Positions 4,447-35,324 of a DNA stretch of 35,324 bases are shown here, piece by piece. The notes under the pieces are model-generated. The model saw nothing but the letters and a program-made list of their open reading frames with translations. It was not told the origin of the DNA and did no database searches. The position numbers and the translations under genes were made by a program. How positions within the stretch are numbered: the first letter of the stretch is position 1; each line of letters starts with the position of its first letter. The stretch comes from Saprospiraceae bacterium (GTDB taxonomy: Bacteria > Bacteroidota > Bacteroidia > Chitinophagales > Saprospiraceae), in NCBI GenBank assembly GCA_022841745.1, contig JALHQW010000076.1:1-35324 (forward strand), given 5' to 3'.

Positions 4447-6252
4447 ATGAAACAGTACTATTTCTCAGTCTATCTCCTTTTGGTAACTCTAACAGTTTGT
4501 GGTCAAAAAAGAGACAATATTTGGTTGTTAGGCTATTACAATAACTTAAATGACCCAAATTTTGGTGGTATGGCCTTAGACTTCAATACCATGCCACCAG
4601 AAATATACCCTGTTGACAACGATATGTTCATGTTCGATACGAATGCTAGTATTTGTGACGAAGAAGGCAACCTTTTGTTTTATACAAATGGCCAAACAAT
4701 TGGCAATGCGGTGTTCGACACCATGCAAAATGGAGGCGGGTTAAATCCTGGTGATTTTGCTGAATCAAATGGAGAATGGGGTTATTGGCTTCCACAGGGT
4801 GCTTTTATATTGCCAAAGCCAGGAAATCCAACTAGCTATTATTTAATTCATGAAGACATCCAATATGCTACATACAATGCCCTTGGATTGCTATTACTTG
4901 CGGAATATTCAAAGCATCTTTATTTTTCTGAAATTGACATGTCATTGGAAAATGGGTTAGGTGCTGTAGTTAAAAAAAATCAAATATTGCGAATCGACAC
5001 TTTGAGCCCAGGCCAGCTAACGTGCACGAGACATGCAAATGGAAGAGATTGGTGGATGGTAGCACATGAATTGACCTCAAAAAATTATTTTCGGTTTTTA
5101 ATATCGCCCGAAGGGATCACTGAAGTAGGCAAGGACAGCACAGAACATGACCTATTTAAAGCAGGATATGGACAAGCTGCTTTTTCCCCAGATGGAACTG
5201 TGTATGCAAGATTAGCCTCCTATGAATTTAGCCAGCCACCAACTATGGATGTTTATAAATTTGATAGGTGTAGCGGATTTTTGAGTGACCATCAACAAAT
5301 ACACATAGGGGAACTCAACGTAGTTGTCACCAGTCTTTCCATCTCTCCAAACTCAAGGTATCTATATGCAGCTACCCAAGATAAAGTTTTTCAGTTTGAT
5401 TTGGAAGCACCAGTCATTGCTTATAGCAAGAAATTAGTGGCAGAATTTGATGGTTTCTACGATACTTCTCCACCATTTACAACATTGTTCTTTTACCAGC
5501 AACTTGCGCCAAATGGCAAGATTTATATGTGCACGGCCAATGGAACTCGATACCTGCATGTCATCCACCAGCCTAACCTTCCCTACCCCAACTGCAATCT
5601 GGAACAGCACAGCATCACTTTGCCAAGGATAAACGGCCAATCCCTCCCCAACTTCCCCAACTACCGCCTCGGCCCTTTGGACGATTCCCCCTGCGACACC
5701 CTCGGACTTGACAACCACCCCGTTGCCTTGTACCGTTATGGTCAGGACGTGAACGACTACCTCACCATTGAGTTCACCGACCTGAGCTATTACGAGCCTA
5801 TTGATTGGCATTGGGACTTCGGCGACAATACCACCGATACTAACCCTAACCCCATCCATGAATTCCCCAGCGACGGCACCTACGAGGTCTGCCTGACGGT
5901 GAGCAACCAGTACGATACGAGCACCTATTGCCGTATGCTCATCATCGGCACTGGCATCAGCGCTACTGCCGAGCCAAACCAGCCAGCCGACCTCGTCAGC
6001 GTCTTTCCCAATCCCGCTCAGTCCGCCACCAATTTCCGACTGGGGGGCGACTACCTGCCACGGGAGGCCATGCTCACCCTCTACTCGGCCACTGGCCAAC
6101 CCGTACACACCCAGCGCCTGATGGCAGGGTGGAGCGTGGTGGGCCTGGAGGGGCTGGCGAAGGGGATGTACTTTTGGGAGGTGCGGGACGCTTGCCTGCC
6201 GGGGCAGGGCGATAGGCAGTTGGGAGCGGGGAAATTGGTGAAGGTGGAGTGA
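4447..6252 (+). CDS. T9SS cargo: propeller-like protein with PKD domain (paralogue of 7216-8961)
   Basis: I start it at the ATG at 4447, because the 15 residues read upstream lie across the terminator and the signal peptide begins MKQYYFSVYLLLVTLTVCGQ. Residues about 20-400 show repeated blade-like strands, such as FSPDGTVYARL and SISPNSRYLYAATQDKVFQF, like TolB/WD40-type propellers. The N-terminal block (NIWLLGYYNN, FYTNGQTIGN) is shared with its paralogue. A PKD domain with WDFGDN follows near residue 460-500. The C-terminus is a T9SS type A sorting domain from VFPNPAQSAT to KLVKVE. It should be exported by T9SS; no enzymatic site was recognised. The 5' two-thirds is AT-rich and the rest, from about 5560, is GC-rich. 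The sorting domain carries an 18-nt in-frame insertion (6190-6207) absent from the paralogue. A TATTTTTG sequence at 4435-4442 resembles a -7 box but lacks a well-placed -33 element. Confidence 0.8.
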   Translation: MKQYYFSVYLLLVTLTVCGQKRDNIWLLGYYNNLNDPNFGGMALDFNTMPPEIYPVDNDMFMFDTNASICDEEGNLLFYTNGQTIGNAVFDTMQNGGGLNPGDFAESNGEWGYWLPQGAFILPKPGNPTSYYLIHEDIQYATYNALGLLLLAEYSKHLYFSEIDMSLENGLGAVVKKNQILRIDTLSPGQLTCTRHANGRDWWMVAHELTSKNYFRFLISPEGITEVGKDSTEHDLFKAGYGQAAFSPDGTVYARLASYEFSQPPTMDVYKFDRCSGFLSDHQQIHIGELNVVVTSLSISPNSRYLYAATQDKVFQFDLEAPVIAYSKKLVAEFDGFYDTSPPFTTLFFYQQLAPNGKIYMCTANGTRYLHVIHQPNLPYPNCNLEQHSITLPRINGQSLPNFPNYRLGPLDDSPCDTLGLDNHPVALYRYGQDVNDYLTIEFTDLSYYEPIDWHWDFGDNTTDTNPNPIHEFPSDGTYEVCLTVSNQYDTSTYCRMLIIGTGISATAEPNQPADLVSVFPNPAQSATNFRLGGDYLPREAMLTLYSATGQPVHTQRLMAGWSVVGLEGLAKGMYFWEVRDACLPGQGDRQLGAGKLVKVE

Positions 6253-7215: not shown

Positions 7216-8961
7216 ATGAAAAAGCTGCCATCGTCTTTGCTATTGTCTTTGCTATTTCCATTTATCTGTTTGGCTCAGGGCCACGACCATGTATGGATGT
7301 ATGGTTACAGTGCTTGGGCTGTTGAAGATTATTTCGGAGGTAGTGTGATTGATTTCAATGCAGAGCCTCCAACAATATTTAGGCAAGATAAAGAGATGAA
7401 TTTTAATACTACGCATGCTGTCATGTGTGACTCTTTCGGTGTGCTTAAATTTTATACAAATGGGATAGCAATTAATGATGCAACCCATAATACAATGGTG
7501 AACGGGAGTGGGCTGAGCCCCGGTGAATATGCTACTCAATACGAGAGTGAAGGTTATTTTACGCTCAACAGTGCGATGGCATTACCTGTTCCTAATAAAC
7601 CTAATTTGTATATGTTGTTTCATTTAAAGATTGAGCATCATCCAATTTACATATTGGCCAATACAACGTTATACCTGACTGTAGTGGACATGGATAAAAA
7701 TGATGGTTTGGGGGAAGTTGTTGCCAAGAACCAAGAGCTACTTACAAATGGCAGGTTTGGGATTGTTAATGCTATTAAACATGGAAACGGCAGGGATTGG
7801 TGGGTATATATAACACATGAAGTTGAGAATAACTATAGTTATTTCCTTTTGACACCTGACGGTTTGCAAGGCCCGTTTTATTATTCTGCAACTCCAAGTT
7901 TTTGTTGCCCTCTAAGCGTTGGTCAGGTTATATTCTCTCCAGATGGCAATAAAGCAGCAAGGTACAATGTCCAACTCGGCGTTTATTTCTATGATTTCGA
8001 CCGCTGTACTGGTGAGTTCAGCAATCCTGTGTTTATACCTCTTCCAAACGGCGATCTTGGTGGTGGTATCGCATTCTCCCCAAATTCGAGGTTTTTCTAT
8101 TTGGTTCATGACCCTGAGAATATTTATCAGTATGACCTATGGGCAAACGACATAGAAAATTCAAAGGTTATCGTGGCCAAATGGGATGGTTTTTTTTCGA
8201 TAGTAGGTTTACGGACTTCTTTCTTGGAATTGCAGCTTGGCCCTGATGGCCGCATCTACGGCAACTCACCCAATAGTGTTGCCCATCTTCATGTAATAGA
8301 CCAGCCCAATAAAAAAGGACTGGATTGCAAGGTATTGCAGCATAGCCTGGAATTGCCCACGCTTAACGGCTTCACCTCCCCCCACTTCCCCAACTACCGC
8401 CTCGGCCCCAAGGACGGCAGCCCCTGCGATACCTTAGGCTTGGACAACCACCCCGTGGCCAAGTTCCGCTGCTCGCAAGACAGCACAGACTACCTTACCG
8501 TGGAGTTCACCGACCAGAGCACCTATGAGCCTAACAGTTGGTCGTGGTTCTTCGGCGACGGCAGCATGAGCCAAGACACCAGCCCCGTACATACCTACGC
8601 CCAGCCGGGCATCTACGAGGTCTGCCTCGTGGCCAGCAACGACAACAGCAGCAGCACCTACTGCAAGGTGCTGGAAATCGCCACCAGCGCCACCACAGCG
8701 CCTAACCAGCCTGCCGACCTCGTCAGCGTCTTCCCCAACCCCGCCCAGTCCGCCACCAATTTCCGGCTGGGGGGTGACTACCTGCCCCGTCAGGCCATGC
8801 TCACCCTCTACTCGGCCACTGGCCAGCCCGTGCTCACCCAGCGCCTGATGGCGGGTTGGAGCGTGGTGGGCTTGGAGGGGCTGGCGAAGGGGATGTATTT
8901 CTGGGAGGTGCGTGACGGTGATAGAAGGTTGGGAGCGGGGAAGTTGGTGAAGGTGGAGTAG
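7216..8961 (+). CDS. T9SS cargo: propeller-like protein with PKD domain (paralogue of 4447-6252)
   Basis: The start at 7216 places a signal peptide (MKKLPSSLLLSLLFPFICLA, cleavage near LAQ) at the N-terminus; an earlier in-frame ATG at 7183 lies inside the terminator stem. The order of parts matches the gene at 4447. There is a blade-like region (HVWMYGYSAW, LKFYTNGIAI, FSPDGNKAARYN, FSPNSRFFYLVH), a PKD domain with WFFGDG near residue 450, and a T9SS sorting domain from VFPNPAQSAT to KLVKVE. From FPNYRLGP onward the two paralogues are very similar in protein and DNA, while their N-terminal halves have diverged. As in its partner, the sequence turns GC-rich at about 8330. Function beyond surface export is unknown. 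A weak hairpin follows the stop. Confidence 0.8.
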   Translation: MKKLPSSLLLSLLFPFICLAQGHDHVWMYGYSAWAVEDYFGGSVIDFNAEPPTIFRQDKEMNFNTTHAVMCDSFGVLKFYTNGIAINDATHNTMVNGSGLSPGEYATQYESEGYFTLNSAMALPVPNKPNLYMLFHLKIEHHPIYILANTTLYLTVVDMDKNDGLGEVVAKNQELLTNGRFGIVNAIKHGNGRDWWVYITHEVENNYSYFLLTPDGLQGPFYYSATPSFCCPLSVGQVIFSPDGNKAARYNVQLGVYFYDFDRCTGEFSNPVFIPLPNGDLGGGIAFSPNSRFFYLVHDPENIYQYDLWANDIENSKVIVAKWDGFFSIVGLRTSFLELQLGPDGRIYGNSPNSVAHLHVIDQPNKKGLDCKVLQHSLELPTLNGFTSPHFPNYRLGPKDGSPCDTLGLDNHPVAKFRCSQDSTDYLTVEFTDQSTYEPNSWSWFFGDGSMSQDTSPVHTYAQPGIYEVCLVASNDNSSSTYCKVLEIATSATTAPNQPADLVSVFPNPAQSATNFRLGGDYLPRQAMLTLYSATGQPVLTQRLMAGWSVVGLEGLAKGMYFWEVRDGDRRLGAGKLVKVE

Positions 8962-20461: not shown

Positions 20462-20507
20462 GGGTTTGTGGAAAAAATCCAGGGTGGCAAACAATCAATA
20501 CAGTTTA

Positions 20508-20661
20508 TAGATGAACGCATTTGAAATTGATAGCAGTCACCAACGAGAGGAGGGGTTATCAAACCCCGATGTTCCGGAACATCGGGGTTTGATAACCCCT
20601 CCTCTCGTTGGTGACTGCTGTTGGCTAAATTTTGTTCATCAATTTTAAATTAGACTATCTA
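20508..20661 (+). mobile_element. 154-bp palindromic MITE-like element, copy 1, flanked by TA
   Basis: The element begins tagatgaacgcattt and ends agactatcta, with TA directly outside each end (20506-20507 and 20662-20663). Its core is a perfect 88-bp palindrome (20532-20619, arms of 44, no loop) centred on gttccggaac. Nested inside each arm is a smaller palindrome, ggggttatcaaacccc. A second copy of the same length in inverse orientation lies at 26397-26550. The palindrome centre is off the element's middle in both copies and in mirror-image fashion, which fixes the relative orientation. No transposase is encoded, so movement would need an enzyme supplied elsewhere. The TA duplication is the habit of the IS630/Tc1-mariner group. 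Confidence 0.85.
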
Positions 20662-20674
20662 TACTGCGCACCGC

Positions 20675-20774
20675 CAAGTTTTGGGCATCAGCAAACTGTG
20701 CTGTTGGCTTTTAGCAATTGGCTGTTGGCCAACAGCCAATTGCTAAAAGCCAACAGCTTTATGCACAAAACTTG
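20675..20774. repeat. Second palindromic element abutting MITE copy 1
   Basis: A perfect 58-bp palindrome (20700-20757, arms of 29) is centred on ttggccaa. It is bracketed by an outer inverted pair, caagttttgggcat (20675-20688) and atgcacaaaacttg (20761-20774), with one mismatch. It starts within a dozen bases of the end of MITE copy 1 and shares no core sequence with it, so it looks like a different element family. Confidence 0.75.
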
Positions 20775-20956
20775 ACGGCGTTAGCTATATAATAGGTATC
20801 GAAGCGATAACGGACTCATCGAATGGCTTGGGGCTTTTACTCATTAATCGTGGCATTGTTTTTGGCTGCTAGTAATTATTCCCTTCCTGCGTAGCTCCCC
20901 ATTGTATTAAATTCATATCAAGCGACAACTAAAGATGCTTGGATTCGTTACAGCTT

Positions 20957-21708: not shown

Positions 21709-22857
21709 ATGTTTAAAAATAATCGCTTTAATTTCCTTTCGCTGGCCATGCCCAGCCTTTTTGCAGCGCTTATGCTCACAGCCTGCGCTTCCGATAAAAC
21801 ACCCGGCGAAACCATTGCCGAAACCCAATCTTACCCCGTCACCCAGCCGCTCGTGATGGACACCACTTATCAAAAGGAGTACGTCGCCGACATCCAGTCG
21901 CCGCAGCACGTCGAGCTGCGGGCAAGGATACAGGGCTTCCTCGAAAAAGTGCATGTGGACGAAGGCCAAGCGGTGCGGGAAGGGCAGGTGCTTTTCACCA
22001 TCAGCAACCAGGCTTTGCGGGAAGAACTCAAAAAGGCAAACGCCCTGCTGAACAGCGCCATTGCGGAGGCAAAAGTTGCGGAGGTGGAGGTACAGAATAC
22101 CCGCATCCTCGTTGAGAAAAACGTCGTCTCCAAGTCCGAACTGGCCATGTCGGAGGCGAAGCTGGAGGCGCTCCGGGCGAAGATTGAGGAGGCAAAATCC
22201 GATGTGTCGGCGGCTCAGTTGAACATCTCGTTCGCACAGGTGAAGGCCCCGTTCAGCGGCATCATCAACCGCATACCCAACAAGCAGGGCAGCCTCATCG
22301 AAGAGGGCACGCTGCTTACCGCTTTGTCCAGCAACCACGATGTTTTTGCCTATTTCAACGTCTCTGAAAAAGAGTACCTCGAACTGGAAAAACAAAAGAA
22401 TACCGACTGGAAAAAAAGTGCCTCGCTCATGCTCGTCAACGGCCAATTGCACCCGCACAAGGGCCGTGTCGAGACCGCCGAAACGGTCATTGACAAGGCC
22501 ACCGGCAGCATCGCCTTCCGTGCCCGTTTTCTCAATCCAGGGCATTTCCTCAAGCATGGTTCCAGCGGCAAAGTGCTTATCGAAAACGAGTTGAAGAACG
22601 CCATCGTCATCCCACAGAAATCCACTTTCGAGGTACAGGACAAGCTCTATGTCTATGTGCTCGGCGAAGGCAACAAGGTCGAAATGCGGGCCATCGTGCC
22701 CAAGCTGCGCCTTTCGCATTTGTACGTCATCGAAAGCGGTCTTTCGGTCAATGACAAGTTCATTTACGAAGGCATACAGACTGTTAAACAAGGGGATATG
22801 GTAACGCCTGAATTTAAGCCGATGGGGGAATTTATGTCAATGCTGGCGATGCGGTAA
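21709..22857 (+). CDS. RND efflux periplasmic adaptor (HlyD/MFP family lipoprotein)
   Basis: This is the membrane-fusion subunit that links an RND pump to its outer-membrane channel. The 382 residues begin with a lipoprotein signal ending LMLTAC, so Cys26 should be lipidated. A lipoyl half-motif lies at about 67-95 (LRARIQGFLEKVHVDEGQAV). An alpha-helical hairpin at about 100-170 is rich in Ala, Glu and Lys. The second lipoyl half (FAQVKAPFSGIINRIPNKQG), a beta-barrel domain (YFNVSEKEYLEL) and a membrane-proximal domain follow. The pump gene starts 219 bp downstream; the spacer is filled by an AT-rich inverted repeat and a GC-rich hairpin. The substrate cannot be inferred. Confidence 0.93.
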   Translation: MFKNNRFNFLSLAMPSLFAALMLTACASDKTPGETIAETQSYPVTQPLVMDTTYQKEYVADIQSPQHVELRARIQGFLEKVHVDEGQAVREGQVLFTISNQALREELKKANALLNSAIAEAKVAEVEVQNTRILVEKNVVSKSELAMSEAKLEALRAKIEEAKSDVSAAQLNISFAQVKAPFSGIINRIPNKQGSLIEEGTLLTALSSNHDVFAYFNVSEKEYLELEKQKNTDWKKSASLMLVNGQLHPHKGRVETAETVIDKATGSIAFRARFLNPGHFLKHGSSGKVLIENELKNAIVIPQKSTFEVQDKLYVYVLGEGNKVEMRAIVPKLRLSHLYVIESGLSVNDKFIYEGIQTVKQGDMVTPEFKPMGEFMSMLAMR

Positions 22858-22862
22858 TTTTT

Positions 22863-23001
22863 TTGATTTAAGATATAAGATAGACGATTTTAGATTTTGC
22901 GAGACAATGCCGTTGATTATAGGTGTTTCTATAAATCTTAAATCATTTAATCGCCAGTTAGATCTAAAATCTTATATCGTCTATCTTATATCTTAAATCA
23001 A
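22863..23001. repeat. AT-rich inverted-repeat element, copy A (uninterrupted)
   Basis: The 26-bp ends are perfect inverted repeats (22863-22888 and 22976-23001), beginning ttgatttaagatataagat. Copy B at 26303-26604 has the same ends and a related middle (gcgagacaatgcc against gcgggacgatgcc). The TA at 22948-22949 corresponds to the site where the MITE inserted into copy B, so copy A is the empty-site reference. It lies between adaptor and pump genes of the operon. Confidence 0.88.
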
Positions 23002-23026
23002 GAAAGAATCTACATTAAACCCAATG

Positions 23027-23050
23027 CTGGTGCGGCCTCCCCGCACCCAG
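23027..23050 (+). other. GC-rich hairpin upstream of the RND pump gene
   Basis: ctgg-tgcgg (23027-23035) pairs with ccgcacccag (23041-23050) with one bulged base, followed by ttactctttt. It could act as a partial terminator or protect the downstream mRNA, changing the ratio of adaptor to pump. Its role is inference. Confidence 0.45.
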
Positions 23051-23076
23051 TTACTCTTTTCCCTAAATCAAAAATA

Positions 23077-26000
23077 ATGACCGTCAAATTCATACATCGC
23101 CCCATTCTCTCCATTGTCATATCCACCTTTATTACCATTTTAGGCGTACTGGCGCTGACGCAATTGCCCATGACGCAGTTCCCCAGCGTGGCACCGCCGG
23201 AGGTGAACGTGACCGTGGAATACACCGGTGCCAATGCCGAAACCGTGACCAAGGCTGCCCTCGTGCCGCTCGAACGTGCCATCAATGGCGTACCGGGCAT
23301 GAAGTACATGTCATCCGATGCCGGGAACGACGGCGTGGGCGTGGTGCAGGTCATCTTCGAGGTGGGCACCGACCCCGACGTGGCCGCCGTCAATGTGCAA
23401 AACCGGGTGACGGCCGTCATGGGCGAGCTACCCACCGAGGTGACCCGCAACGGCGTGAAAATCGCCAAGGAGGAGAACGCCATGCTGATGTACCTCAATA
23501 TCTTCAGCCGGGACTCGATACTGGACGAAAAATTCCTCTACAATTTCGCCGACATCAACGTATTGGCGGAACTGAAACGGGTCAACGGCGTCGGCTTCGC
23601 CGATATTTTGGGGGCAAAAGAGTACGCCATGCGCATCTGGCTCAAGCCTGATAAACTGCTGGCCTACAACCTCTCCACCGACGATGTCCTTGAAGCCCTC
23701 GACGAGCAGAACATCGAGGCAGCGCCCGGCAAAGTGGGCGAGAGCAGCGACAAAACCGCCCAGTCGCTCCAATACGTCATCAAGTACACAGGCAAGTACA
23801 ACACCGAGGAGCAGTACGCCAATTTGCCCATAAAATCCACGCCCGACGGGCAGATTCTGCGGATAAAGGACGTGGCGGACGTGGAATTCGGCACCACCTA
23901 TTTCGACGTGGAAGCCAAGCTGAACGGCAAGCCCTGCGCAGCTCTCATGCTCAAGCAATTGCCCGGCTCCAACGCCAGCGAGGTCATCGCCAACGTGAAA
24001 AAACGCATGGCGGAAATTAAGCAAAGCACCTTCCTCGAAGGCATGGACTACGAGGTGAGCTACGACGTGTCCCGCTTCCTCGATGCCTCGGTGCGGGAGG
24101 TCATCAGGACGCTCATCGAGGCGTTCCTGCTGGTTTCGCTCGTGGTTTTCATCTTCCTGCAAGACTGGCGCTCGACGCTCATCCCGGCCATCGCCGTGCC
24201 TGTTTCGCTGGTCGGCACCTTCCTGTTCATGCAGCTTTTCGGCTTCTCGCTGAACCTCGTCACGCTGTTCGCCCTCGTGCTGGCCATCGGCATCGTGGTG
24301 GACAATGCCATCGTGGTCGTCGAAGCCGTCCATGCCAAGATGGAGGGCGCCCCCCGCATCACGCCCATGCAGGCCACCGAGCAGGCGATGCACGAAATCA
24401 GCGGGGCCATCGTCGCCATCACGCTCGTCATGTCGGCGGTGTTCATCCCCGTGGCGTTCATGTCGGGGCCGGTCGGCATTTTTTACCGACAATTTTCGGT
24501 CACAATGGCCATTTCCATCGTGCTGTCCGGCGTGGTGGCGCTCACGCTCACACCTGCACTTTGCGCCATTCTGTTGAAAAACAGCCACGGCAGCCATGCT
24601 GGCAAAAAGTCATTGACCGCCCGTTTTTTCGCAAGTTTCAACCGCTGGTACGATGGGCTGGCCAACCGCTACCAGCGCCTGCTCGGCACGCTGGCCAGCC
24701 GCCGGGTCGTAACCTTTGCCATGCTCGTTGCCTTCTTTGCTGGCACGGGCTTTTTGGGTAAAATATTGCCGACAGGCTTCATCCCCAACGAAGACCAGGG
24801 CACGTTCTACGCCAGCATCACCACGCCTTCCGGCTCCACGCTGGAGCGCACGAAGGAGGTCGTCAACGAGATACAACGGGTGAGCAAAGGCATAGAAGCC
24901 ATCGAGTCGGTGTCCACTTTGGCAGGCACGAACATCCTCTCCGACGGCACGGGCGCTACCTACGGCACCTGTCTCGTGAACCTGAAACCGTGGGAGGCGA
25001 GGAAGGAGACGGTGGACGAAGTGATTGGCATTTTGGAGGAGAAAATCGGGCATATCAAGGATGCCAAAATCGAGCTGTTCCCGCCGCCCGCTGTGCCGGG
25101 TTATGGCAACGCCAGCGGCTTCGAGCTGCGGCTGTTGGACAAGACGGGCAAGGGCGATTTCAAGGCGATGGAAGGCGTCGTGCAGCAGTTCGTCGCCGAC
25201 CTGCAAGCCCGACCGGAGATAGCCTCGGCCTTCACCATTTTCGATGCCAGCTACCCGCAGTACATGGTGCATATTGACAACGACAAGGCGGCGCAAAAAG
25301 GCGTGACCGTGAACAATGCGATGGGCGCTTTGCAGACCCTGCTTGGCTCGGAGTACGCCACCAACTTTATCCGTTTCGGTCAAATGTACAAGGTGATGGT
25401 ACAGGCGCTGCCGGAGTACCGTGCCAAGCCGGACGACATTTTGAAGCTCTATGTGAAAAACGACGAGGACGAAATGGTGCAGCTTTCGGCGTTCATGTCC
25501 ATCGAAAAAATCTATGGCGTGGACCAAGTGACCCGCTACAATATGTACCCCTCTGCCGAGTTGAACGGCGAGGCAGCACCGGGCTATAGTTCCGGTTCTG
25601 CTATCGCTGCCGTGCAGGAAGTGGCCAAGGCCAAATTGCCGAAAGGCTACGATATAGACTGGGCGGGCATCACCCGTGACGAGGTGGCGACGGGCAACCA
25701 AGCTGTCTATATTTTCCTGATTTGCCTGCTGTTCGTCTATTTGTTGCTTGCTGCGCAATACGAGAGCTTCCTGCTGCCCATGCCCGTCATACTCAGCCTC
25801 CCGACGGGGGTGTTCGGCGCTTTTGCGCTGCTGGCAGCAATGGGCTTGGAGAACAATATCTACGCCCAGATTGCCATGGTCATGCTCATCGGCCTGCTGG
25901 GCAAGAACGCCATCCTCATCATCGAGTTCGCCGCCATGAAACACAAGGAGGGCCTGACGCCGTTCCGTGCTGCCGTCGAAGGGGCAACGCTGCGATTGCG

Positions 26001-26277
26001 CCCCATCCTGATGACCTCGTTCGCCTTCATCGCTGGCCTGTTGCCGCTGCTTTTCGCCAACGGCGCAGGTGCCATCGGCAACCGCACCATCGGCGCTGCG
26101 GCAGCGGGCGGGATGCTGTTCGGGACGGTGTTCGGGGTCGTGCTCGTGCCGGGGCTGTACGTGATTTTCGCCACGCTGTCGGAGTTTTTTGTGAAAAAAG
26201 CGAAGGAAGAGCAGGTGGAGATTACGGAGGAGGTGCCGCTGACGGAGGAGATGGAAGGGGTGGAAATTGGAAATTGA
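23077..26277 (+). CDS. RND efflux pump, AcrB/HAE1-type inner-membrane transporter
   Basis: This is the proton-driven trimeric pump subunit of a tripartite exporter. The 1066 residues match the family. It begins MTVKFIHRPILSIVISTFIT (TM1), followed by a porter domain (QFPSVAPPEVNVTVEYTGAN). TM2-TM6 lie at about 340-500, a second periplasmic domain follows, and TM8-TM12 run from about 875. The proton-relay region in TM4 reads GIVVDNAIVVVEA: the first Asp (Asp409) is kept, but the partner, Asp408 in E. coli AcrB, is Asn410. Lys943 (LLGKNAILIIEFA) and Arg973 (LRLRPILMTSFAF) match the other relay residues. It follows the adaptor gene and precedes the outer-membrane factor, with repeat elements in both spacers. 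The substrate range is not readable from sequence. Confidence 0.95.
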   Translation: MTVKFIHRPILSIVISTFITILGVLALTQLPMTQFPSVAPPEVNVTVEYTGANAETVTKAALVPLERAINGVPGMKYMSSDAGNDGVGVVQVIFEVGTDPDVAAVNVQNRVTAVMGELPTEVTRNGVKIAKEENAMLMYLNIFSRDSILDEKFLYNFADINVLAELKRVNGVGFADILGAKEYAMRIWLKPDKLLAYNLSTDDVLEALDEQNIEAAPGKVGESSDKTAQSLQYVIKYTGKYNTEEQYANLPIKSTPDGQILRIKDVADVEFGTTYFDVEAKLNGKPCAALMLKQLPGSNASEVIANVKKRMAEIKQSTFLEGMDYEVSYDVSRFLDASVREVIRTLIEAFLLVSLVVFIFLQDWRSTLIPAIAVPVSLVGTFLFMQLFGFSLNLVTLFALVLAIGIVVDNAIVVVEAVHAKMEGAPRITPMQATEQAMHEISGAIVAITLVMSAVFIPVAFMSGPVGIFYRQFSVTMAISIVLSGVVALTLTPALCAILLKNSHGSHAGKKSLTARFFASFNRWYDGLANRYQRLLGTLASRRVVTFAMLVAFFAGTGFLGKILPTGFIPNEDQGTFYASITTPSGSTLERTKEVVNEIQRVSKGIEAIESVSTLAGTNILSDGTGATYGTCLVNLKPWEARKETVDEVIGILEEKIGHIKDAKIELFPPPAVPGYGNASGFELRLLDKTGKGDFKAMEGVVQQFVADLQARPEIASAFTIFDASYPQYMVHIDNDKAAQKGVTVNNAMGALQTLLGSEYATNFIRFGQMYKVMVQALPEYRAKPDDILKLYVKNDEDEMVQLSAFMSIEKIYGVDQVTRYNMYPSAELNGEAAPGYSSGSAIAAVQEVAKAKLPKGYDIDWAGITRDEVATGNQAVYIFLICLLFVYLLLAAQYESFLLPMPVILSLPTGVFGAFALLAAMGLENNIYAQIAMVMLIGLLGKNAILIIEFAAMKHKEGLTPFRAAVEGATLRLRPILMTSFAFIAGLLPLLFANGAGAIGNRTIGAAAAGGMLFGTVFGVVLVPGLYVIFATLSEFFVKKAKEEQVEITEEVPLTEEMEGVEIGN

Positions 26278-26302
26278 GAAATCGAAGATTTACGCCAATT
26301 AA

Positions 26303-26604
26303 TTGATTTAAGATATAAGATAGACGATTTTAGATTTAAGATTTAGCGGGACGATGCCAGCATTTACTGGTATTTTCATAAATCAAAAATCATTTATAGA
26401 TAGTCGCAATTGAAATTGATGCTTGGGTTGGGCAATTTAGCAGACCCTTTCGAGAGGGGGGGTTATCAAACCCCGGTGTCCGGAACGCCGGGGTTTGATA
26501 ACCCCTCCTCTCGAAAAGGGCCTGCCATCAACTTTAAATGCGTTCATCTATAATCCCCAATTAAATCTAAAATCTTATATCGTCTATCTTATATCTTAAA
26601 TCAA
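26303..26604. repeat. AT-rich inverted-repeat element, copy B, split by a MITE
   Basis: It has the same 26-bp perfect inverted ends as copy A (26303-26328 and 26579-26604). The inner part matches copy A apart from about 7 extra bases (aagattta region), but is interrupted after cattta by the 154-bp element at 26397-26550, and resumes with taatcccc. It fills the spacer between the pump gene and the outer-membrane factor gene. Confidence 0.88.
26397..26550 (-). mobile_element. 154-bp palindromic MITE-like element, copy 2 (inverted), flanked by TA
   Basis: It is the inverse-orientation partner of the element at 20508-20661. It begins tagatagtcgcaattg and ends gcgttcatcta, with TA on each side (26395-26396 and 26551-26552). 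Reverse-complementing its right end gives tagatgaacgcattt, the left end of copy 1. The core is the same palindrome (gagaggnggggttatcaaac, mirrored), but with several mismatches and a one-base loss, so this copy has decayed. It sits inside AT-rich repeat copy B, whose unsplit relative in copy A has a single TA at the same point. Confidence 0.87.
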
Positions 26605-26623
26605 AAAAAATCAAGAATTAAAA

Positions 26624-28060
26624 ATGCAAAATATCAAATCATATATCCCTCATATTGCCATCATCACAATAATGGGCATATTCAGTTGCAAGCCCGTCGA
26701 AGTCCTCCGCACGGACACCCTGCTGCCCAGTCCGGACGCTTTCGCCGATGCCACCGCCGACACCACCAACTCGGCCACCCTCAACTGGCGGGAATACTTC
26801 AATGACCCCTACCTCGAAGGGCTGATTGACACCGCCCTTGCCAACAACCTCGACCTTAAAATGGCCGTGCAGCGCATCGAGGCGGCGAAGGCGGGCGTAC
26901 TGGCAGCGAACGGGGCGCTGCTGCCCACCGTGGAGGCGGCGGGTGCTGCCGGAATGACCAAGTTTGGCCGCTACACCATGGACGGCGCTGGCAACCGCAA
27001 CACGGAAATGATAAACGGCAAAGACATCCCCGTTCACCTGCCCGATTTTTTCGTCGGCCTGCAAAGCAGCTGGGAGATTGACGCTTGGGGCAAATTGAAA
27101 AACCGCCGTCAAGCCGCTGCCAACCGATTTTTGGCGAGCGTGGAGGGCAGGAATTTCATACAAACCAGCCTCGTCGCCGAAATCGCCGCCGCCTACTACG
27201 ACCTCTTGTCGCTCGATGCCAGCCTGCGCATTGTTGACGAGAATATCGGCATCCAGCAAAACGCACTAGAACTGGTGCGGGTGCAAAAAGAGGCGGGCAT
27301 GGCCAACGAACTGGCCGTGGAGCAGTTCGAGGCGCAATTGCTCGGCCTGCGGGGGCAGCGCATCGAGATGGAGCAAATGATAGTGGAAAACGAGAGCCGC
27401 ATCAACTACCTGTGCGGCAGGTACCCGCAGCCCGTGCAGCGCAGCAGCCTTGATTTGTTGGAAATGTCGCCGCCGTCGTTGGTGGCCGGTGTGCCAGCCC
27501 AGTTGCTCCGCAACCGCCCTGACATCCGGGCGGCGGAACTGGAACTGGCCGCCTCCAAGGCCGACCTGAACGCCGCCCGTGCGCTGTTTTACCCAACCGT
27601 GGAAATCAACGGCCTGCTGGGCCTGCAAGCCTTCCGCCCCGATTTGTTGGTGACAAAACCTGCCTCGCTGGCCTACGGGCTGCTTGGTGGCCTGGCTGCC
27701 CCGCTCATCAACAAGCGGGCGATACAGGCAGAGTTCAACGCTGCCGATGCTTACCAGTTGGAGGCGCTCTACGCTTACCAGCAAGCCATCCTCGGTGGCT
27801 ACGTGGAGGTCCACAACGGGCTGGCGGGCCTCCGCAACCTCCAGCGTTCCCTCGACCTAAAACGCTCTGAGGCGGAGGTGTTTACCCGCTCCATTGCTAC
27901 CTCCAACGACCTGTTCCGCACGAGCCGGGCCACCTATTTGGAGGTGCTGTTTGCGCAGCAAAACGCCCTGAGCACGAGGCTGGAACTGGTGGAGATGAAG
28001 CAGCGGGAATTGATGATGGGCGTGGGGGTTTATCGGGCGCTGGGGGGTGGGTGGCGGTAA
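26624..28060 (+). CDS. RND efflux outer-membrane factor (TolC/NodT family lipoprotein)
   Basis: This is the outer-membrane channel of the efflux pump. The 478 residues begin with a lipoprotein signal ending GIFSC (Cys22). Two OEP repeats follow, each with long helices and barrel strands: LIDTALANNLDLKMAVQRIE with SSWEIDAWGKLKNRRQAAAN in the first half, and RNRPDIRAAELELAASKADL with YGLLGGLAAPLINKRAIQAE in the second. These are typical of the NodT subfamily. It is the third gene after adaptor and pump in the same direction. The 346-bp gap from the pump gene, filled by nested repeats, could lower or uncouple its expression. A likely terminator follows. Confidence 0.94.
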   Translation: MQNIKSYIPHIAIITIMGIFSCKPVEVLRTDTLLPSPDAFADATADTTNSATLNWREYFNDPYLEGLIDTALANNLDLKMAVQRIEAAKAGVLAANGALLPTVEAAGAAGMTKFGRYTMDGAGNRNTEMINGKDIPVHLPDFFVGLQSSWEIDAWGKLKNRRQAAANRFLASVEGRNFIQTSLVAEIAAAYYDLLSLDASLRIVDENIGIQQNALELVRVQKEAGMANELAVEQFEAQLLGLRGQRIEMEQMIVENESRINYLCGRYPQPVQRSSLDLLEMSPPSLVAGVPAQLLRNRPDIRAAELELAASKADLNAARALFYPTVEINGLLGLQAFRPDLLVTKPASLAYGLLGGLAAPLINKRAIQAEFNAADAYQLEALYAYQQAILGGYVEVHNGLAGLRNLQRSLDLKRSEAEVFTRSIATSNDLFRTSRATYLEVLFAQQNALSTRLELVEMKQRELMMGVGVYRALGGGWR

Positions 28061-35070: not shown

Positions 35071-35166
35071 GAGGGTTAGAGGGTTAGAGGGTTTATAAGG
35101 TTTATAAGGTTTATAAGGTTTATAAGGTTTATAAGGTTTATAAGGTTTATAAGGTTTATAAGGTTT
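35071..35166. repeat. Tandem repeat: gggttaga and ggtttataa units
   Basis: Two to three 8-bp gggttaga units (35081 region) grade into eight complete copies of the 9-bp unit ggtttataa (35090-35161), with a further partial copy. Units are identical, which points to slippage or recent expansion. Confidence 0.9.
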
Positions 35167-35181
35167 AAACCTAGCCCTCAT

Positions 35182-35324
35182 AAACCCCAAAACCCCAAAA
35201 CCCCAAAACCCCAAAACCCCCAAACCCCCAAACCCCCAAACCCCAAAACCCCAAACCCCCAAAACCCCAAAACCCCAAAACCCCAAAACCCCAAAACCCC
35301 AAAACCCCAAAACCCCAAAACCCC
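35182..35324. repeat. C4A4 tandem array running off the window edge
   Basis: Eighteen C-runs separated by A-runs follow with a period of 8 from 35185 to the end. Most are ccccaaaa, with a few cccccaaa and compensating 7/9-base units. The other strand carries G4 runs at 8-bp spacing and could form G-quadruplexes. The true end of the array lies outside the window. Confidence 0.95.

Follow-up and report, generated by a model that had tools for sequence, protein, structure and literature searches.

A family of palindromic, TA-flanked miniature inverted-repeat elements in Saprospiraceae, with one copy nested inside a second repeat

The closest described counterparts of the elements reported here are the Correia (NEMIS) repeats of Neisseria, which, as set out in the accessible portion of PMC2229807, occur in forms of about 107 and 155 bp with 24-bp inverted ends and TA termini, yield a stable stem-loop transcript, differ in length by an internal block, and, in the 155-bp form, are almost exclusively intergenic. 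The same portion of that source describes RUP of Streptococcus pneumoniae (107 bp, at TA, intergenic), for whose mobilization by IS630-Spn1 there is indirect evidence in the form of matching ends, and ERIC (also termed IRU or RU-1; 127 bp), which has TA termini, inverted ends, and a stem-loop transcript (PMC2229807). Within the Bacteroidota, the BrickBuilt MITE of Porphyromonas gingivalis is presented, in the excerpted text of PMC4596501, as an end-bearing leader and tail with an internal tandem repeat. REP sequences and the GTAG- and CGTC-tagged palindromes, as outlined in the available part of PMC3733652, are 20 to 40 bp long, carry a tetranucleotide tag, and reach high copy numbers in prokaryotes.

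The window, by which we mean the whole 35,324-nucleotide stretch of DNA that was analyzed (contig C76 of a Saprospiraceae assembly of 8.43 Mb in 178 contigs), contains two copies of a 154-bp palindromic element (Table 1) whose tested features make it a member of a TA-inserting MITE family of the Correia/RUP/ERIC kind. The family resembles Correia/NEMIS in size, ends, TA, and stem-loop (a likeness of description, not of sequence, and limited to the accessible account of the latter) but occurs in a different phylum and has its interior replaced wholesale between sister species. Its end match extends over ~24 bp, against 7 bp in ERIC, and no copy was seen inside an open reading frame (ORF), whereas ERIC is described in the same partial source as having gene-fused open frames. 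Tandem half-cores in some copies (L194, L216, and C108) recall BrickBuilt, but single hairpin cores dominate. Short, high-copy palindromes are shared with the REP sequences as characterized in the available text; the Saprospiraceae family, however, has long inverted ends and TA flanks, and the long ends argue against REP/RAYT membership. No name for the family was found in the open-access literature (mainly titles and the starts of abstracts), in keeping with the original prediction, which did not recognize it as a described one.

Table 1. Repeat copies, target-site bases, and adjacent efflux genes, in window coordinates
Feature	Position	Strand	Remarks and basis
Inner MITE copy 1, 154 bp	26397..26550	+	Inside outer repeat B; sequence and repeat analysis
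Left TA of target	26395..26396		Sequence; empty sites in two paralogues (copy A and C37)
Right TA	26551..26552		Sequence
Palindromic core, copy 1	26445..26519		35-nt arms, 91% complementary
Inner MITE copy 2, 154 bp	20508..20661	-	Orientation opposite to copy 1
Palindromic core, copy 2	20532..20619		44-nt arms, 100% complementary, without spacer
Outer repeat copy B, split by inner MITE	26303..26604	+	Sequence, repeat analysis, alignment
Outer repeat copy A, unsplit (paralogous empty site)	22863..23001	+	Sequence, repeat analysis, alignment
HlyD-type gene	21709-22857		Pfam
AcrB-type gene	23077-26277		Pfam
Outer-membrane efflux protein gene	26624-28060		Pfam

Copy 1 has its long-arm end at the left (TAGATAGTCGC) and its short-arm end at the right (..GCGTTCATCTA), and copy 2 is bordered by TA at 20506-20507 and 20662-20663. 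Both outer repeats are AT-rich with inverted ends, whose outermost 26 bases were judged by eye to be a perfect match; when the repeats were recomputed, the arms were 93% complementary over 40 nt in A and 43 nt in B. The junction in A reads catTTAAtcgcc and that in B reads catTTA, the 154 bp, and then TAAtcccc; from this comparison, the gain in B amounts to 154 bp (26397-26550) plus one TA, a TA–element–TA arrangement being indistinguishable from an element with A...T ends that has been inserted bluntly between a T and an A. Among 12 aligned outer copies from the source genome, the insert is present in B alone, and the copy on C37 (TCATATAATCG) has a single TA at the insertion point, where most of the other copies are too diverged for a base-by-base comparison. 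The outer repeat is itself a multicopy family, with 120 aligned pieces when both strands and both arms are counted, and copies A and B lie in the two successive spacers (22858-23076 and 26278-26623) of an efflux gene set encoded on one strand. The original prediction of a 154-bp palindrome nested in a second repeat with 26-bp perfect inverted ends, of an empty site preserved in the same window, and of a second, equally long inner copy flanked by TA is thus borne out by the junctions, the 12-copy alignment, and the sequence itself.

Repeats of other kinds occur elsewhere in the window. The contig ends in a (AACCCCAA)n array (35183-35324) beside a 9-bp TATAAGGTT array (~35089-35167), both of them simple, telomere-like repeats at the end of a bacterial contig. 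In addition, the stretches at 5605-6250 and 8338-8959, which lie about 2.71 to 2.73 kb apart and are 72 to 89% identical, suggest duplicated genes.

Beyond the window, the element is dispersed through the source genome, where the best nonself copy matches at 95% identity across 154 bp (E = 4.9e-64). A 205-base query returned at least 90 aligned pieces at no fewer than 42 places, 2 of which hold the outer repeat only; this leaves at least 40 related places, a lower bound, as 40 of 159 candidates were scored. The end motif TAGATnnnCGCATTTnAAATTGAT, at up to 3 mismatches, was found 24 + 23 times (47 in total), against 0 + 0 for the reversed pattern, and the half-core GGGGTTnTCnAACCCCG, at up to 1 mismatch, was found 52 + 52 times, against 2 + 0 for its control. 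Because of the 47 ends set against a control of zero, together with the 95%-identical copy, we regard the palindromic family as real and not a product of chance; a genome-wide search, which the original prediction had proposed as a check with the 154-bp sequence, did recover dispersed copies with shared ends.

Some end match was obtained in 36 of the 60 genomes searched, the source genome included. Among its genus-mates, matches are most numerous in G006 (16 + 16), followed by G007 (6 + 7), G008 (5 + 6), G011 (4 + 7), and G013 (2 + 2); of the other eight, four (G003, G005, G010, and G012) have no end match and four have one to three. Genomes outside the genus have at most 4 matches each, every listed one carrying 2 or 3 mismatches; in such genomes, matches to the reversed control were obtained as well. 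Clear copies were seen only within the same genus among these 60 genomes. One copy in the source genome (L063, C49:58581-58724) is missing between the same pair of genes in all seven sister genomes read at that position (G001, G004, G006, G007, G008, G011, and G012), whose orthologous spacers are too diverged to show a single TA.

To describe the ends and flanks, end pairs were assembled by script (at most 7 mismatches per end and 9 in total, the better end having at most 4, at a spacing of 48 to 340 bp), yielding 58 distinct pairs at the examined loci, 25 in the source genome and 33 in genus-mates; because these limits are loose, some pairs are probably false. Sizes range from 52 to 324 bp, with most falling between 82 and 187 bp. 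The flank consensus is TTA[..]TAA: the three bases preceding the element are T in 47, T in 47, and A in 41 of the 58 pairs, and the three following it are T in 47, A in 48, and A in 45. Of the 58 pairs, 27 have TA at both borders, as do 14 of the 19 pairs with the best-preserved ends (≤2 mismatches per end). The original prediction named copies not flanked by TA as evidence against it, and such copies do exist (among the 19 best-preserved pairs, 5 have no TA at one border or at both; among all 58, 10 have none at either border; and a 52-bp copy is without TA flanks), but they are outweighed by the flank consensus and the empty sites. The TA target and the common ends are upheld by the genome-wide copies, that consensus, and the absence of one insertion from sister genomes. 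No ORF of ≥90 aa among the nonoverlapping longest ORFs kept by the script extends across any of the 58 pairs; of the 25 copies of the source genome, 10 lie in tandem, 7 in divergent, and 6 in convergent gene gaps (2 undetermined). Several features of bacterial MITEs are present: the elements are short and noncoding, with common inverted ends and a TA duplication whose empty state is seen in two paralogues (copy A and the copy on C37).

The ends are constant, and the hairpin middle is variable between relatives. In a list of source-genome copies fetched by their likeness to the core itself, most have a long palindrome of the form CGAGAGG(A/C)GGGGTTATCAAACCCCGG..GTTCCGGAAC.. as their core. Among source-genome copies found through their ends, one of 52 bp has almost no interior and one of 121 bp encloses a different hairpin, and further interiors occur between the same ends in relatives. 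As TAGAT-ended elements with another core, or almost none, exist, the ends appear to move without the core, and the interior seems dispensable for movement. Conversely, the same core lies within a second set of ends (TAGTGnGn..TTTTAACTGATGAAAACG-type) in six source-genome copies (L066:6970, L068, L069, L070, L072, and L116), and half-cores form tandem arrays at C108, L194, and L216. A third set of ends in the same layout surrounds a TA-flanked palindrome adjoining copy 2 (~20662-20791; ends TATAGCTAACGCCGTCAAGTTTTGTGCAT), with 29-nt perfect arms (GCTGTTGGC..) at 20700-20757, and, among the examined loci, similar ends enclose another hairpin interior at L008 and L067.

Within the variable cores, many paired positions of the two arms change together. 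In a set of 53 cores (41 from the source genome and 12 from genus-mates) picked by two half-motifs at fixed spacing, bases at position 7 from the center are paired in 36 copies versus 20.0 expected with one side shuffled, at position 25 in 49 versus 30.8, and at position 37 in 34 versus 15.6; positions 1 to 4, 40, and 42 are among those barely above expectation. After removal of three tandem-array rows (two from L017 and one from L029), arm identity over ten variable stem positions, which lie outside the selecting motif and were chosen after the per-position results were known, is 0.716 within copies versus 0.465 between copies (n = 50). Permuted identities average 0.470, with 0.542 the highest of 2,000; because the copies share kinship, these permutations serve as a guide and give no strict probability. 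Predicted RNA folds of parts of copy 1 (26397-26534) and copy 2 (20508-20657) have z scores of -10.5 and -17.5, respectively, against shuffled sequences, and an Rfam search of the window returned no match at the gathering score. In a single orthologous case (C33:65496-65616 and its counterpart on G011:C113; 88% identity over 1,204 aligned bases), the hairpin has ATCAAC/GTTGAT in one genome and GTCAGC/GCTGAC in the other, such that two pairs have changed on both sides; in G011, this copy has a decayed left end. The co-variation fits either homogenization by template switching, a process able to create and maintain such hairpins according to the available text of PMC8794818, or selection for the hairpin.

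Neither a transposase nor a full-length relative bearing the family's ends was found in the source assembly or at the genus-mate loci; a multicopy partner could be missing, however, because the assembly, many of whose 178 contigs end in repeats, breaks at repeats. The source assembly has two PF13358 matches: one lies in a complete IS630-type element of 1,336 bp on C39 (ends TAGTACACTG..), whose ends receive scores of -6.3 and -6.9 on a matrix built from the family ends (family members score ≥17.3, and 17% of shuffles do as well as the C39 ends), and the other, on C19, is a fragment without definable ends. The IS630-type element with TAGAT ends that the original prediction proposed to look for was not found in the source genome as assembled, and the proposed IS630/Tc1-mariner-type mobilization, to which the TA target is suited, found no support in the C39 ends or in any matching partner. 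RUP and IS630-Spn1, as reported in the accessible portion of PMC2229807, are a precedent for such mobilization, but no end-matching IS was found for the Saprospiraceae family.

Several candidate partners were rejected. At C13:135756-137277 (L108:2257-3778), ends 1.5 kb apart belong to an ordinary copy whose core is interrupted by an IS256-family (PF00872) element and which by eye closely resembles the copy at 20508, and at C33:65496-66829, ends 1.33 kb apart belong to two short copies flanking a 301-aa gene with no Pfam match. Three loose pairs in relatives (L202, 2,284 bp; L175, 2,757 bp; and L173, 1,666 bp) contain ORFs of ≥120 aa that by eye are not transposase-like, and C26:155 borders a repeated element that occurs in high copy at the ends of contigs. 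On C8 and C9 of G007, a MITE-like end abuts a repeated element that is found at six contig ends with other flanks. A Pfam search with 30 residues gave no match for this element, whose last residues may be those of an IS110-type transposase. Two of the six end copies (L239 and L243; C8 and C9) abut the MITE-like end exactly at AGTTGATG, a word found both in the terminus of the element and in that of the MITE, and site-specific insertion into the MITE is possible. The exact outer motif TATAGATnnnCGCnTT revealed no added partner in G000, G007, G008, or G011, and the end pattern had no exact match in viral contigs.

We consider it very likely that the family consists of nonautonomous miniature inverted-repeat elements inserted at TA by a trans-acting DDE-type transposase, with a dispensable interior and arms kept matched afterward. 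Such a transposase would recognize the ~24-bp inverted ends (TAGATnnnCGCATTTnAAnTTGAT) and target intergenic TA sites, with a preference for TTAA; after insertion, the arms would tend to stay matched, probably through replication template switching between them, with a possible contribution from selection on the hairpin as RNA or DNA. That the enzyme belongs to the IS630/Tc1-mariner superfamily is, in our judgment, evenly balanced. Its source may instead be another TA-using DDE family, a variant that we hold to be possible, if on the doubtful side: it is favored by the mismatched ends of the one complete IS630-type element, but no other candidate with matching ends was seen, and both the IS256-family element and the G007 repeated element have inserted into copies or next to them.

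Two further explanations were weighed. Were the hairpin core the mobile unit (REP-like and moved by an IS200/IS605-type tyrosine transposase), the TAGAT ends would be its habitual landing site or passengers; the core GAGAGG-GGGGTTATCAAACCCC does occur between different ends in the six copies noted above, other core copies have by eye no recognizable TAGAT end, and the half-core arrays point the same way. This is nonetheless very unlikely, given the TAGAT-ended elements with a different core or almost none (52, 82 to 103, and 121 bp), and, judged by eye, the two sets of ends share the pattern TAG....CGC.TTT..A.TTGATG, so that the second may have diverged from the first. It is also unlikely that the copies, instead of being transposons, function as hairpins between genes (as terminators, RNase III sites, or mRNA-stability sites), having been dispersed by recombination and retained through selection. 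The extreme fold energies, the co-varying arms, and the two compensatory changes in an orthologous copy with a decayed left end would all suit such a role, but the mixture of gene gaps gives no consistent placement at gene 3′ ends, insertion at TA within another repeat also counts against it, and template switching, as described in the available text of PMC8794818, can produce the same co-variation without selection.

Building on the TA-inserting MITE that we favor, we tentatively suggest a broader and rather less probable picture, namely, a modular miniature transposon in which fixed TA-inserting ends would carry interchangeable hairpin cassettes: different cassettes would be amplified in each sister species and traded between end families, and template switching would homogenize the arms in each copy, even after the ends have decayed. 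The kind of element is ordinary, and it is the exchangeable hairpin and the homogenization of its arms that merit more work. The family adds a palindromic, TA-type MITE to those known, here for the Saprospiraceae, and the nested insertion bears on the relative ages of two repeat families. Hairpins in the spacers of the efflux gene set could alter transcript levels, and the many copies with variable stems offer a natural set for asking whether palindromes are kept by selection for the hairpin or by template switching during replication.
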